NCBI GenBank assembly: GCA_903896535.1
Contig: CAITYE010000405.1
Coordinates: 1-36,613, forward strand
Origin: an uncultured Paracraurococcus sp.
GTDB taxonomy: Bacteria > Pseudomonadota > Alphaproteobacteria > Acetobacterales > Acetobacteraceae
Reading direction: 5' to 3'
DNA length: 36,613 nucleotides
The translations under genes were made by a program, and so were the position numbers. Every line of letters begins with the position of its first letter. Position 1 is the first letter of the stretch. The notes beneath the pieces were generated by a model. That model ran no database searches, was not told the DNA's origin, and saw only the letters and a list, made by a program, of their open reading frames with translations. Shown here in pieces: positions 17,593 through 36,613 of the stretch.

Positions 17593-17686
17593 TGCGTTGA
17601 GGCGGAATCGCCGAAGGCGCTGAATCCCGCGACCAAAAAGAGTTAGAGCAGGGTGCGTGAACGCATTTGAACGCAGCATGCTCTAG
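17593..17686. repeat. Dispersed hairpin repeat, copy 1
   Basis: A 94-base sequence that recurs almost exactly at 27926-28020. It starts with a short conserved block containing CGCC-GAA-GGCG. It ends with a long imperfect hairpin whose arms are TTAGAGCA/TGCTCTAG and TGCGT/ACGCA. It fills the gap between the ettA-GNAT pair and the phosphatase gene, partly overlapping the last codons of the latter. It resembles palindromic repeat families common between genes in alphaproteobacteria. Confidence 0.85.
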
Positions 17687-18252
17687 AGGCCGGCTGCGTC
17701 GATCTCACGACCACGTCCGGCGCGCCGCATGATTTCCGCAAGGTGAGGCCGGATACCAAGTTGGTGCCGGTAAAGTGCAGGCGAGGCCAAAGCCAACCGG
17801 TCGGCACGCCCCAGAATGACATCACCCAATTCAAGCATACGCAAATTCGGCCAAGCCTTTTCGCGCTGCGCGAGGATACGCCGCATCAGTGCGTCGGCGG
17901 ACTGCTCCGGATGCGCCTGGGCGAGGATCAACGCCATCGCCGCGGTCGAACGGGAGATGCCGGCATGGCAATGCACCAATAATCGGGCCTGTTCGGCCTC
18001 TGATAAGGATCGGCCAAAGGCAAGAATCCGGGCAACATCTTCGTTCTGGGGCGCCGTCTGCGCGGGCGTGTCCTCGATCACATCATGGAAGCGCAGTTCC
18101 AGGCGCGTATGTGGGTCATAATCGGCGAACGCCTCGGGCAAAAGATGCTCTGGGTCGAGGATCGAGACCACGTGGGATACGCCGCGCTTACCGTGAGAGG
18201 GTAACTCCTCAATGCCACAGATAGCGAGGTCGAAAGCGGTGACGATCTGCAT
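17683..18252 (-). CDS. Cysteine-dependent protein phosphatase (dual-specificity/tyrosine phosphatase-like)
   Basis: A 189-residue protein with the phosphatase signature HCHAGISRS (Cys95 to Arg101). Asp57 in FHDVIED is a candidate general acid. The N-terminal half MQIVTAFDLAICGIEEL and V-S-I-L-D-P-E-H correspond to the sensing strand and loop of this bacterial family, probably a tyrosine or phosphoinositide phosphatase. A GTG at 18267 with a GGGGG ribosome site 6 bases upstream is an alternative start adding five residues. Divergent from radA with about 96 bases between. Its last residues enter the repeat at 17593-17686. Substrate unknown. Confidence 0.8.
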   Translation of the reverse strand: MQIVTAFDLAICGIEELPSHGKRGVSHVVSILDPEHLLPEAFADYDPHTRLELRFHDVIEDTPAQTAPQNEDVARILAFGRSLSEAEQARLLVHCHAGISRSTAAMALILAQAHPEQSADALMRRILAQREKAWPNLRMLELGDVILGRADRLALASPALYRHQLGIRPHLAEIMRRAGRGREIDAAGL

Positions 18253-27153: not shown

Positions 27154-27918
27154 ATGCAGTTGGAGAACGCCGTCGCAATCGTCACCGGAGCCGCCTCCGG
27201 GCTTGGCCTCGCAACTGCACGGCGCCTGCTCGCGGGCGGCGCGAAGGTGCTGCTCGTTGACCTGGAAAGCTCGGAAGGCGCCAAACTCGCCGCAGAACTA
27301 GGCCCTCATGCCGACTTCAGCGCAGCCGACGTGACCGATGGTCCGCAAATGGAAGCCGCCGTCAGCAAGGCGCATCGCCTTGGCGCTGTCCGCATACTTG
27401 TGCATTGCGCGGGGATCGGCGGGTCCCGCCGAATCGTGGATAAGGAAGGGGCGCCCATGCCGCTCGATCATTTCGCACGGATCGTAAATGTGAACCTGAT
27501 CGGCACCTTCAATGCGCTGCGCTGCGCCGCCGCGGCGATCAGCGAAGCGGCACCAATCAATGGCGAGAGGGGCATCTGCATCCTGACTGCGAGCATCGCA
27601 GGCTATGAGGGACAGATCGGCCAATCCCCGTATGCTGCGTCGAAAGCCGGCGTGATCGGCCTGACCATCTGTGCGGCCCGTGACCTTGCTAGCCGGCTCA
27701 TCAGGGTTTGCACCATCGCTCCTGGCATCATGGATACACCGATGCTTGGGCGCCTTCCGGAGCCGGTGCGTGCAGGATTGGCCGCCAGCGTGCCGAATCC
27801 AGCGCGGCTCGGCCTGCCGGAGGAATATGCGCTGCTAGCGAATCAAATTATCGACAACCCCTACCTAAACGGCGAGACGATTCGCTGCGACGGCGCCCTG
27901 AGGATGGGCTTCCGTTAG
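27154..27918 (+). CDS. SDR family oxidoreductase (3-hydroxyacyl-CoA dehydrogenase type-2-like)
   Basis: A 254-residue SDR with TGAASGLGLATARRLL (11-26), N-terminal strand V-L-L-V-D-L, VHCAGIG, catalytic S147 and Y160-x3-K164 in SPYAASK, and IAPGIMDTPM. The arrangement, including GLPEEYALLANQIIDNPYLNGETIRCDGALRM at the end, is that of HSD17B10 (type-2 3-hydroxyacyl-CoA dehydrogenase)-like enzymes of beta-oxidation. Its stop is the first triplet of the repeat region. Standalone gene with a ribosome site GAAGGGA; the 126-base gap upstream (27028-27153) contains nothing recognisable. Confidence 0.85.
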   Translation: MQLENAVAIVTGAASGLGLATARRLLAGGAKVLLVDLESSEGAKLAAELGPHADFSAADVTDGPQMEAAVSKAHRLGAVRILVHCAGIGGSRRIVDKEGAPMPLDHFARIVNVNLIGTFNALRCAAAAISEAAPINGERGICILTASIAGYEGQIGQSPYAASKAGVIGLTICAARDLASRLIRVCTIAPGIMDTPMLGRLPEPVRAGLAASVPNPARLGLPEEYALLANQIIDNPYLNGETIRCDGALRMGFR

Positions 27919-27925
27919 AGCGCGA

Positions 27926-28020
27926 TGCGTTGAGGCGGAATCGCCGAAGGCGCTGAATCGCGCGATCCAACAAAGGCTAGAGCGGGCTGCGTGAACGCAT
28001 GTGAACGCAGCATGCTCTAG
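27926..28020. repeat. Dispersed hairpin repeat, copy 2
   Basis: 95 bases nearly identical to 17593-17686. The 3' half folds into CTAGAGC / GCTCTAG, then TGCGT / ACGCA, with a 12-base loop. In copy 1 the outer arm contains A-T where this copy has G-T, a structure-preserving difference. It begins just after the SDR stop, and the IS3 remnant begins immediately at its end. Confidence 0.85.
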
Positions 28021-28490
28021 TATTTCGGTTCCGCGAAGTGGATCACCTGCCGGTTGATAGGCACTGTTTTGCGGATGCTGTGGCATCCCGCAGATCGGGC
28101 GCAGCGACCATCCGTGCTGAGCGAGATCGCCTGCTCCTGCCGCATCCCCGTAACACCCGCGCCGGTGAACTGGCTGCCCAGGTTGGTGTCGACGATCTCC
28201 GGCTTGCCATAGCGGGCCAATACCTCCCGCGTGGCATCGATGCCGAACTCGATCTTCAGCGTGATGGATGACCGCTAGGCCAGACCTTATCGGCTGAACC
28301 GGTCCACCGCCGCAGCCAGATAGACGAAGCCGCGCGCCATCGGGATATACTGGACGTCCATTGCCCAGACCTGGTTCGGCCGACCGGTCCGGACCTTGCG
28401 CGGCAGATACGGGTAAATCTTGTGGCCCGGTGAGGGCTTGGACATACTCCGCAAGCGACACAGCGCCTCTGTATCGATTTGCCACATATT
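28017..28490 (-). pseudogene. IS3-family transposase (OrfB, rve domain) remnant
   Basis: C-terminal part of an IS3-type OrfB integrase-core transposase, truncated and inactive. Upstream residues GRPNQVWAMDVQYIPMARGFVYLAAAVDRFSR match the first catalytic Asp segment of the rve domain. After two in-frame stops (TAA near 28287 and TAG) the same frame continues ARYGKPEIVDTNLGSQFT, where the second catalytic D has become N in D-T-N-L. The final residues after TDGR look unlike the family, including the expected E-rich end, so the 3' part is also rearranged. N-terminal half absent. Confidence 0.82.
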
Positions 28491-33553: not shown

Positions 33554-35086
33554 CTACATCGTCGCGCCAAGCACCCAGGGCGCGAATTCGGAAGCGCCGA
33601 AATCGAAGCTCTCGCTTTTCGTCTGTGCGCCGCTCGCGGTCGCCAGCATCTTTGCAAAAATCCGCTCGCCTACCTCCTGCACACTCTCCTCGCCGGTCAG
33701 GATGGTGCCGCAGTTGATGTCCATATCGTCTTCCATCCGCTGATACATCGGCGTGTTCGTCGCCAGTTTCAGCGAAGGGGTCGGCTTGCAGCCGAAGACG
33801 CTGCCGCGGCCCGTGGTGAAGCACAGCAGATTGGCGCCCCCCGCCACCTGCCCAGTGGCCCCCACCGGGTCATAGCCGGGGGTATCCATGAACACGAAGC
33901 CCTTGGCCGTCACCGGCTCGGCGTAGCGCACCACATCCACCAAATTGGTGGTGCCCGCCTTGGCCATGGCACCCAGCGATTTTTCCAGGATCGTGGTCAG
34001 CCCGCCGGCCTTGTTGCCGGGTGAGGGATTGGCATTCATCTCCGCCCCCTCCCGCGCGCAATACGCTTCCCACCAATGCATCACATCGACCAACTTCTGC
34101 CCAACCGCCTGGCTGACCGCCCGCCGGGTCAGCAGGTGCTCGGCACCATAGGTCTCTGGCGATTCGCTCAGGATCACCGTGCCGCCATGCTGCACCACGA
34201 GATCGGAGGCCGCGCCCAATGCCGGATTGGCGGTAATACCCGAATAGCCGTCCGAGCCGCCGCATTGCAGCGCAATACACAACTCGCTCGCCGGCACGGT
34301 CACCCGCCGTACCTGGTTCGCCTCCGCCAGCACCTCCCGCACGAAGTCGATGCCGGCCTGCACAGTCTTCCGCGTGCCACCCATCTCCTGGATATCCATG
34401 CTGCGGAGCCGACCCGATAGTCGCTGCTCCTCCAGCAAGCCGCCGATCTGGTTCACCTCGCAGCCCAGCCCGACACCAATCACATGCGCGAAATTGGCGT
34501 GCCGGGCAAAGCCGCCGAGGGTGCGGCGGAGCAGCCGCAGCGGCTCACCATCGGTCATGCCGCAGCCGGTCTTGTGGGTCAGCGCCACAACGCCGTCCAC
34601 GTTCGGCCAGGCGGCAAGCGGGTCCTCACCCGTCAACGGATTCCGACGAAAGGCCTGGGCGATCAGTTCGGCCACGTGCGCGGAGCAATTCACCGAAGTG
34701 ACGATACCAATGTAATTGCGCGTCGCGACCCGACCATCCGCGCGACGAATACCCTGAAAGCTGGCAGGCCCCGACACCGGCAGGGTCGGCCGCGCATCCA
34801 CACCCCAGGCATAGTCGCGGGCGAAATCCCCCATCGCCATATTGTGGGTATGGACCCATTGCCCGGGGGCGATCGCTTCGGTGGCGAAGCCGATGATCTG
34901 GCCATAGCGCCGAATCGGTGCGCCCTCGGCATGCGGCGCCACCGCTATCTTATGGCCTGGCGGGATGCGCGTGGCGGCATGGACGCCCGGCGCCACCGGC
35001 GTACCGGGCGGCAGCGCCTGGCGGGCGATCAACACGCCATCCTCGGCGTGCAGGCGGATGACGAGCGGCTGGGTGACGGCGTCCAT
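33554..35086 (-). CDS. UxaA-family dehydratase (altronate dehydratase-like), fused SAF and C-terminal domains
   Basis: A 510-residue sugar-acid dehydratase of the UxaA/GarD family. The N-terminal SAF domain (about 1-90) leads via a linker to the C-terminal catalytic domain, beginning 'GIRRADGRVATRNYIGIVTSVNCSA' (about residues 110-135) and including KTGCGMTDGEPLRLLRR, ALQCGGSDGYSGITANPA and MDTPGYDPVGATGQVAGG. The conserved Cys residues fit an Fe-dependent enzyme. Altronate, galactarate and L-fuconate/arabinonate-type substrates are known in the family; none can be chosen from sequence. It follows the TauD-type gene by 60 bases on the same strand, with ribosome site AGGGAGG. Confidence 0.88.
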   Translation of the reverse strand: MDAVTQPLVIRLHAEDGVLIARQALPPGTPVAPGVHAATRIPPGHKIAVAPHAEGAPIRRYGQIIGFATEAIAPGQWVHTHNMAMGDFARDYAWGVDARPTLPVSGPASFQGIRRADGRVATRNYIGIVTSVNCSAHVAELIAQAFRRNPLTGEDPLAAWPNVDGVVALTHKTGCGMTDGEPLRLLRRTLGGFARHANFAHVIGVGLGCEVNQIGGLLEEQRLSGRLRSMDIQEMGGTRKTVQAGIDFVREVLAEANQVRRVTVPASELCIALQCGGSDGYSGITANPALGAASDLVVQHGGTVILSESPETYGAEHLLTRRAVSQAVGQKLVDVMHWWEAYCAREGAEMNANPSPGNKAGGLTTILEKSLGAMAKAGTTNLVDVVRYAEPVTAKGFVFMDTPGYDPVGATGQVAGGANLLCFTTGRGSVFGCKPTPSLKLATNTPMYQRMEDDMDINCGTILTGEESVQEVGERIFAKMLATASGAQTKSESFDFGASEFAPWVLGATM

Positions 35087-35146
35087 AGCTTTCCTCCCTA
35101 ATTCTGGAATTCCGGGAAGACTAGCGCGGCCATCGCCAGCCGGACA

Positions 35147-36001
35147 TCACCCGGCGATCATCGTGCGAAACATCAGCCGGGTGTATTTTGTGTGATCGAA
35201 CAGCGTGGCGGTATGCAGCACCGCGCGGTTATCCCAGGCAACGAGATCGCCCGGCTGCCAGGCGTGCCGGTAGAGGAAACGCTCCTCGGTCGCATGCGCC
35301 ATCAGCGTCTCGATCAATGCGGCACTCGCCGCCAGACTCATGCCCTCGATATGACTGATCACCGCCGGGCATAGAAACAGCGAGCGGGCGCCGGTTACCG
35401 GGTGAACCCGGACCAAGGGTTGTGGCTGCGGCGGGAAGCGACGCCGGGTTTCCTCAGAGAGCGGCGGGCGACCTGGTGTATGCCGGCTGTTCCAGGCGTG
35501 CAGCGTGGCGATATCGTGGATCGCGGTCAGGCCCTCGATGCGCGCCTGCATCGCCGCGGGCAGCGCCATCCAGGTTGCCGTCGCGTCAAGGAACCAGGTT
35601 TCTCCTCCGACCGGCGGCACGATCGCGCCATAGAACAGAGAGGCTGCGCTGGGTACTGAACGGAAGCTGCTATCCGCGTGCCATTGTTCGACCCCGCGGG
35701 CGAAATTGGCGCGGATGCCATCGGCTTCGTAGTTGCCGACACAGAAGACCTCCGGGTGCACCGGGTGGGTGGCGGTCGACGCGGAGTGCAACTCCAGCGG
35801 GCCGAGCCGGCCGCTGAACGCAACGAGGGCCCCAGGATTGTTCGGCACGCTGCGCAGCAAAAGGATCCGGTGCCGATGCAGCGCCGCGCGAAAGCCATCC
35901 ATCGCAATCTCGGGCACATCGCCTGCGATGCGCCAGCCAGGCAATTCGGCACCGAAGCTGGCCCCCGGAATTGGTCGGGTGGCGGTGGTTTCGGCAAGCA
36001 T
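35147..36001 (-). CDS. TauD/TfdA-family Fe(II)/2-oxoglutarate dioxygenase
   Basis: A 284-residue oxygenase. Iron triad: H108 and D110 in EQWHADSSF and H263 in RAVLHTATL; R275 (T-K-Y-T-R-L) is placed to bind 2-oxoglutarate. TauD-like features include EVFCVGNYEADG and VGGETWFLDATATW. Members hydroxylate taurine, 2,4-D, alpha-ketoglutarate-linked small acids and similar substrates; the true substrate is unknown. I start at 36001, where GGAG lies 11 bases upstream; an ATG at 36040 would add 13 residues without a ribosome site. The gene precedes uxaA in the same direction and is divergent from the TPP-controlled transporter. Confidence 0.87.
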   Translation of the reverse strand: MLAETTATRPIPGASFGAELPGWRIAGDVPEIAMDGFRAALHRHRILLLRSVPNNPGALVAFSGRLGPLELHSASTATHPVHPEVFCVGNYEADGIRANFARGVEQWHADSSFRSVPSAASLFYGAIVPPVGGETWFLDATATWMALPAAMQARIEGLTAIHDIATLHAWNSRHTPGRPPLSEETRRRFPPQPQPLVRVHPVTGARSLFLCPAVISHIEGMSLAASAALIETLMAHATEERFLYRHAWQPGDLVAWDNRAVLHTATLFDHTKYTRLMFRTMIAG

Positions 36002-36118
36002 GGGCAAGGGCTCCGGTTGGTGTCGCCGCTGCGCGTTCATCCCATGGCTTGACCATGCCAGCGGCAGGGGCCGGCAGCAAACCTTGCGCCATGGCCGAGG
36101 AGACGCCACTCTCGGCCC

Positions 36119-36212
36119 ATCACCTGGGGGAGCCCGTTTGGTCGGGCTGAGAGGCGGGATCCCGCGACTCCTGGAACCTGATCCGGTTAGTACCGGCGAA
36201 GGGAGCGGTGTG
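36119..36212 (+). ncRNA. TPP riboswitch (THI element)
   Basis: Thiamine-pyrophosphate-binding leader RNA. The three conserved blocks are present in order: CTGAGAGG (36147-36154), ACCTGATCCGG (36176-36186) and GCGAAGGGAG (36196-36205). Stems: P1 CACC/GGTG (36121-36124 with 36207-36210), P2 AGCCCG/CGGGCT (36131-36136 with 36143-36148), the optional P3 arm GCGGG-AT-CCCGC, and P5 CCGG/CCGG around TTAGTA. It lies 62 bases before the ABC binding-protein start. Confidence 0.96.
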
Positions 36213-36249
36213 GGCTCGCCCAGCGGCATGGTACCGCGTGGCGCCACCG

Positions 36250-36269
36250 CCTCCTCGTCGTTGAGGAGG
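36250..36269 (+). promoter_or_regulatory. Shine-Dalgarno sequestering hairpin downstream of the TPP riboswitch
   Basis: CCTCCTC (36250-36256) and GAGGAGG (36263-36269) form a perfect 7-bp stem with a GTCGTT loop. The right arm is the Shine-Dalgarno sequence, five bases before the ATG at 36275. When formed, this stem blocks ribosome access, so the TPP-bound state probably represses translation. Confidence 0.85.
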
Positions 36270-36274
36270 AAACG

Positions 36275-36613
36275 ATGCTGGACCGTCGCCAGTTGCTGGG
36301 TAGCACCGTCGCCTTGCTGGCCGCCCCTGCCCTGGCGCAGCCAGCGCGGGCGCGCACCCTTCGCTTCATGCCACAGGCCGCGCTCGCCTCGCTTGACCCC
36401 ATCTTCAACCCTACAACGATCGTCACGACGCATGGCTACTGTGTCTTCGATACGCTTTACGGCTGCGACCGTTCGCTTCGACCACAGCCGCAAATGGCCG
36501 AGGGGCATAGCGTCTCAGCCGATGGTCTGACCTGGACGATTCGGCTGCGGGAAGGGTTGCGCTTCCACGATGGCCAGCCGGTCCGCGCGCTGGATTGTAT
36601 CGCCTCGCTCAAG
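36275..36613 (+). CDS. ABC transporter substrate-binding protein, family 5 (Opp/Dpp/nickel type), partial
   Basis: The first 113 residues of a family-5 periplasmic binding protein; the rest is beyond the window. A signal peptide MLDRRQLLGSTVALLAAPALA, with a twin-Arg-like start, is followed by RTLRFMPQAALASLDPIFNP, then TTHGYCVFDTLYG and G-L-T-W-T-I-R-L-R-E-G-L-R-F-H-D-G-Q-P-V, the SBP_bac_5 signature. Family members bind peptides, nickel, glutathione or other solutes. Control by a TPP riboswitch points to a thiamine-related ligand, precursor or salvage compound (inference). Confidence 0.93.
   Translation, partial: MLDRRQLLGSTVALLAAPALAQPARARTLRFMPQAALASLDPIFNPTTIVTTHGYCVFDTLYGCDRSLRPQPQMAEGHSVSADGLTWTIRLREGLRFHDGQPVRALDCIASLK

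Follow-up and report, generated by a model that had tools for sequence, protein, structure and literature searches.

The closest described regulatory system to the locus reported here is the TPP riboswitch (THI element, RF00059) with sequestration of the Shine-Dalgarno sequence (SD). In RegPrecise, TPP regulons are sorted into ortholog groups, 20 of them for biosynthesis and 19 for transporters (PMC3766115). The B1-vitamer transporters named in the accessible part of a second source are ThiB, ThiT, ThiY, ThiV, CytX, and YkoF, with no family-5 binding protein among them, and the NMT1-type ThiY is linked there to pyrimidines (PMC10881298). The transporters of FAMP and AmMP have been called unclear (PMC10470507). 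In C. difficile, a TPP-linked ABC operon is dissimilar to known thiamine transporters, and TPP-marked unknown ABC systems therefore have precedent (PMC11477304). Our literature search for a TPP riboswitch joined to a family-5 or peptide-type binding protein (SBP) returned no relevant paper, with most subscription journals and the RegPrecise group lists lying outside its reach.

The locus shares with these THI-controlled units a full aptamer, an SD-burying stem downstream, and a second TPP unit in the genome beside thiC. However, the gene under THI control here is neither a thi biosynthetic gene nor one for a known thiamine transporter, but codes for a family-5 SBP that stands alone. ThiXYZ, which is TPP-controlled in close relatives without an SBP of this type, has the same inferred role, but its binding protein belongs to PF09084 (NMT1) and it forms a full operon, whereas here we find a PF00496 protein and the binding protein only. 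ThiBPQ is likewise an ABC importer under thiamine control, yet the SBP has no match to the ThiB/TbpA model (TIGR01254), and none above cut-off was found in 24 genomes; weaker TIGR01254 matches in relatives, all below cut-off, were rejected as ThiB. Orphan cluster-C SBPs can borrow a shared permease, as MppA does with OppBCDF. Our locus resembles such orphans in being a lone gene of the Opp/Dpp fold and departs from them in its control by a vitamin-responsive RNA, and it differs from Opp, Dpp, and Nik operons in that no linked permease and ATPase stand beside it. As far as the accessible part of the B1-vitamer transporter lists shows, the SBP falls outside the B1 transporter families described so far.

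The window, by which we mean the whole 36,613-nucleotide stretch of Paracraurococcus sp. DNA that was analyzed, is the entire contig C405, one of 561 in the assembly. Two Rfam RNAs lie within it, one tRNA and one TPP aptamer. The features at its right end are as follows:

35147–36010, minus strand: divergent gene for a TauD-family dioxygenase (PF02668, E = 3e-58), which bounds the regulated unit on its left.
36116–36222, plus strand: TPP riboswitch aptamer (RF00059; cmscan 71.6 bits, E = 2.3e-12, model positions 1–105, that is, all 105).
36121–36124 with 36207–36210, plus strand: P1 of the aptamer, CACC with GGTG (coordinates from the projected alignment).
36223–36274, plus strand: expression platform, from aptamer to start codon (by sequence and folding).
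36245–36250, plus strand: CACCGC, complementary to the P1 3' strand GCGGTG at 36205–36210 (pairing in the best SD-unpaired fold).
36250–36256, plus strand: anti-SD strand CCTCCTC, the 5' half of the predicted 7-bp sequestering stem.
36263–36269, plus strand: SD GAGGAGG, pairing with 36250–36256 across a 6-nt loop; the ATG is at 36275.
36275–36613, plus strand: first 113 codons of the gene for the family-5 SBP (PF00496, SBP_bac_5, E = 3.2e-13).

A preliminary description, made from the letters of this DNA, had called a complete TPP aptamer, a 7-bp stem burying the SD, and a family-5 binding protein starting at 36275. All three calls hold: the aptamer is full-length and well above the RF00059 gathering score of 54.3 bits, the open reading frame matches PF00496, and the SD has a predicted pairing probability of 0.99 in local folding and 0.98 with the aptamer formed. 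In 40 shuffles of the upstream sequence the mean was 0.57, and none (0/40) reached 0.99.

Folding of the leader also suggests how the switch could work. With the aptamer held in its consensus fold, the SD hairpin is favored by 4.2 kcal/mol (−71.9 vs −67.7); with no such constraint, SD-paired and SD-free folds are equal in energy (−75.6 vs −75.5 kcal/mol). The fold that leaves the SD free has CACCGC at 36245–36250 paired with the 3' strand of P1, which makes CACCGC a candidate element of the alternative structure without ligand; the start codon is itself paired in this fold. The modeled folding thus fits translational repression by TPP, with the ON structure provisional. The stability of the whole leader is not unusual (z = −0.28), so stability alone is no evidence. 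Two other pairings fared poorly. The preliminary description had floated GAGGAG at 36097–36102 as an anti-sequestor for CCTCCTC, and its pairing probability of 0.001 speaks against the idea. A pairing of GAGGCGG (36151) with CCGCCTC (36247), when forced, gave −72.6 kcal/mol, whereas the best unforced folds reach about −75.6, and it is therefore a weak candidate only. We regard the identification as a riboswitch as strong, and a response to TPP is predicted by computation.

The SBP reading frame in the window runs for 113 amino acids to the contig end. Window positions 34809–36613 correspond to positions 1–1804 of a second contig, C381, at 95.5% identity, with the contig ends overlapping end to end, showing that the assembly holds two variants at the riboswitch-SBP locus. 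A true duplication into two near-identical copies was considered and rejected; given the end-to-end overlap at this identity, the contigs are most simply variants of one locus. A TPP aptamer is present on C381 too (74.1 bits), where the stem is shifted in register (TTCTCCTC / GAGGAGGA) with the SD still covered. C381 also holds the complete SBP gene (L024, 1466–3046, 526 amino acids). The preliminary description had suggested looking for permeases and an ATPase to the right of the window; C381 has instead a convergent eipB-like gene immediately 3' of the SBP gene, and no same-strand permease or ATPase was recognized next to it in L024. Because these neighbors are absent, we regard the SBP as an orphan binding protein.

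The SBP is not readily placed among characterized proteins of its family. Its AlphaFold2 model (pLDDT 90) matches peptide, opine, nickel, and sialic-acid SBPs in Foldseek searches, with TM scores of 0.56–0.79 to DppA, OppA, and NikA. The nearest solved structure is a family-5 SBP of Bordetella bronchiseptica (PDB 8vdx, 40% identity), for which no ligand or function is named. The SBP reaches none of the NCBIfam equivalog cut-offs for GsiB, NikA, DppA, and OppA, its best scores being 101.7 bits against a cut-off of 594 for GsiB, 71.2 against 393 for NikA, and 44.6 against 1005 for DppA. By these scores, therefore, it is not plainly a peptide protein, and not plainly a nickel protein either. Its N-terminus, read by eye, is signal-like and contains two arginines (MLDRRQLLG..., with MHRRSLLA... 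in orthologs). An RR-x-L/F-L motif is conserved at the N-termini of the window SBP and orthologs L065–L112 (MHRRSLLA, MQRRSLLKG), a sequence pattern that suggests export by the Tat pathway, which would be unusual for an SBP.

To place the locus among relatives, SBP homologs were collected by a GTDB-wide scan (78 loci), and upstream TPP elements were called by a THI consensus search, checked for many of those genomes by whole-genome RF00059 searches. The preliminary description had proposed surveying genomes for THI elements before SBP_bac_5 genes, and they do recur: TPP elements lie just 5' of the SBP gene in many named Roseomonas-like genera. In a maximum-likelihood tree the window SBP is one of 46 Roseomonas-like sequences that form a single clade (support 100/100), with a TPP element upstream in 33, none in 12, and one (L090) undeterminable because it lies too near a contig end. 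No sampled paralogue outside the clade has a TPP element. An additional TPP-linked ortholog, 71% identical and also matching PF00496, was found in Plastoroseomonas while examining other TPP sites, and in the plasmid collection SBP homologs were found only below 60% identity. Could the association be an annotation or assembly accident of a metagenome-like assembly? The window does end at the SBP gene and the locus was assembled twice at 95.5% identity, but isolates from several named Roseomonas-like genera carry the same arrangement in their genomes, which refutes the idea and leaves it with practically no weight.

Parsimony on the SBP tree counts six changes of TPP presence or absence, a pattern that fits one putative early gain of the riboswitch with several later losses (e.g. 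in Belnapia). The SBP gene stands alone in every ortholog locus examined, and the permease and ATPase must therefore come from elsewhere. The gene that follows is unrelated, in most cases convergent, and commonly eipB, aspS, or rnd (names read from sequence, eipB excepted); a TauD-like gene lies upstream in some orthologous loci too. Sequestration of the SD accompanies the aptamer across the clade. Mean SD pairing was 0.79 in TPP-linked orthologs against 0.66 in shuffles (Wilcoxon p = 3.5e-4) and 0.67 against 0.66 in loci without a TPP element (p = 0.34), and the two groups differ at p = 0.0096, all by tests that make no correction for relatedness between sequences. The stems vary in sequence between genera with the SD still covered in most, and a few orthologs (e.g. 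L089, L091) lack a strong SD stem. Of the suggestion that this is an under-described importer, the part that stands is a predicted TPP translational switch before a family-5 SBP across genera, assignable to no NikA, DppA, OppA, or GsiB equivalog; an importer operon was not found.

The genomes of relatives bear on what the SBP may do. Four genomes (G349–G352; three Pseudoroseomonas and Roseomonas sp. KE0001) have only paralogues of the SBP and encode an NMT1-type ThiY. In three of the four, those whose loci were read, an operon of ABC ATPase, permease, and ThiY lies directly 3' of a TPP site, and in KE0001 the sole TPP site of the genome is just upstream of the ThiY gene. The Pseudoroseomonas loci L151, L157, and L162 each hold a TPP-controlled ABC ATPase, permease, and NMT1 binding protein of the ThiZXY type (with Pfam run on L151 only). 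Conversely, none of 25 genomes that have the SBP clade encodes a ThiY ortholog, and none was found in the window's genome at 1e-20. This alternation suggests that SBP and ThiZXY are functionally equivalent, though the four ThiZXY genomes are close relatives and the exclusion may represent only one or two evolutionary events.

LuxE-like and LuxC-like genes, surprising members of a thiamine regulon, stand directly behind a TPP riboswitch at L156 (G329:C292, 266–5383) and L161 (G353:C19, 318–4408), followed by an ABC ATPase and NMT1 binding protein in Paeniroseomonas or by an ATPase and permease in Bosea, where LuxC was read by eye.

A rival idea is that the SBP keeps a peptide-type or other function and carries no B1 vitamer, the riboswitch merely coupling that nutrient to TPP status. 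In its favor, the SBP folds like peptide and nickel SBPs, and 12 orthologs have lost the riboswitch while their proteins remain close to the query (75–82% identical in most). However, the riboswitch is retained in most genera of the clade, and a long, fully supported branch separates the paralogues. Moreover, the genome has just two TPP-controlled units, this gene and thiC, and the SBP alternates with TPP-controlled ThiZXY. We consider an ordinary nutrient role distinctly improbable, and a role in B1-vitamer uptake probable.

The explanation that we favor, with a probability of roughly 60%, is that the gene encodes a TPP-repressed orphan SBP for a B1 vitamer, likelier a pyrimidine than free thiamine, which works with a shared Dpp-type permease encoded elsewhere and replaces ThiXYZ; the ligand is inferred. 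At high cellular TPP, the riboswitch would shut off translation of this lone periplasmic SBP of family 5 (cluster C): TPP binding would close P1, and the CCTCCTC strand would be free to pair with the SD. At low TPP the leader could refold and expose the SD. The protein would be exported and would bind a vitamer, with pyrimidines (HMP, AmMP, or FAMP, for example) the likeliest; it would pass this on to a Dpp-type permease whose genes lie at another place in the genome, thereby presumably substituting for the TPP-controlled ThiXYZ of close relatives. Two findings count against this explanation: the SBP gene has no linked permease, and the genomes of the 12 orthologs that lack the riboswitch (Belnapia and others) show no TPP-linked replacement transporter, Paeniroseomonas excepted.

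The preference for a pyrimidine is a lead that comes from the thiamine genes. No TPK (PF04263) was found in any of 24 genomes, the window's included, although the models may miss divergent thiamine kinases, and neither ThiK nor ThiM passes its cut-off in the window's genome. As no known thiamine kinase family is recognized there, pyrimidine salvage would be the more useful import, and a precursor appears likelier than thiamine. The preliminary description had left thiamine, a precursor, or a salvage compound as the substrate; the precursor now looks the more likely, and thiamine itself loses ground for want of a kinase family above cut-off. The competing possibility is that the SBP imports thiamine or thiamine phosphate, with phosphorylation by ThiL (of TMP) or by an unrecognized kinase. 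ThiL is present in the genome, TPP control suits thiamine uptake equally well, and kinases outside the searched models are possible. Besides the kinase results, the alternative system of the relatives is of the ThiY (NMT1) type, which the literature links to pyrimidines (PMC10881298). Overall, import of thiamine or thiamine phosphate seems to us unlikely, though a serious contender.

For the pyrimidine reading, other genes of the pathway give a mixed picture. ThiD (TIGR00097), which a cell requires to make use of HMP, is present in all sampled family members at more than 270 bits, but none passes the cut-off in the window's genome (best 44 bits), owing to either an assembly gap or a real loss; this weakens the case for HMP in this genome in particular. 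A TenA-family gene, assigned by family only, lies on C37 inside an isc/mnmA cluster. A further PF03070 match on C68, one of three in total, was rejected as TenA, since its cluster reads like pqq genes.

The orphan SBP, marked by a riboswitch and conserved in about 45 species, offers a specific candidate for B1-vitamer uptake that can be tested. If the proposal is true, ThiXYZ would here clearly have given way to a non-orthologous replacement, and a genome that is scored as having no B1 uptake may rely on an SBP that looks like an ordinary peptide-type protein. More tentatively, and short of even odds in our judgment, Roseomonas-like bacteria may have turned a cluster-C SBP into a receptor dedicated to a pyrimidine vitamer (HMP, AmMP, or FAMP), an orphan with a shared Dpp-type permease and under TPP control since the ancestor of the group. 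Such a route would be distinct from ThiBPQ, ThiXYZ, ThiT, ThiV, CytX, and YkoF.

Two minor features of the window deserve mention. Left of the riboswitch, a galactarate/altronate dehydratase-like gene (33554–35086) precedes the TauD gene (35147–36010), and similar genes occupy this place in several related genomes. Repeats of about 105 bp at 17593–17688 and 27916–28025 are 87–96% identical to L024 8120–8224 and 9644–9752, occur in both orientations, and by their sequence appear to be a dispersed repeat family.
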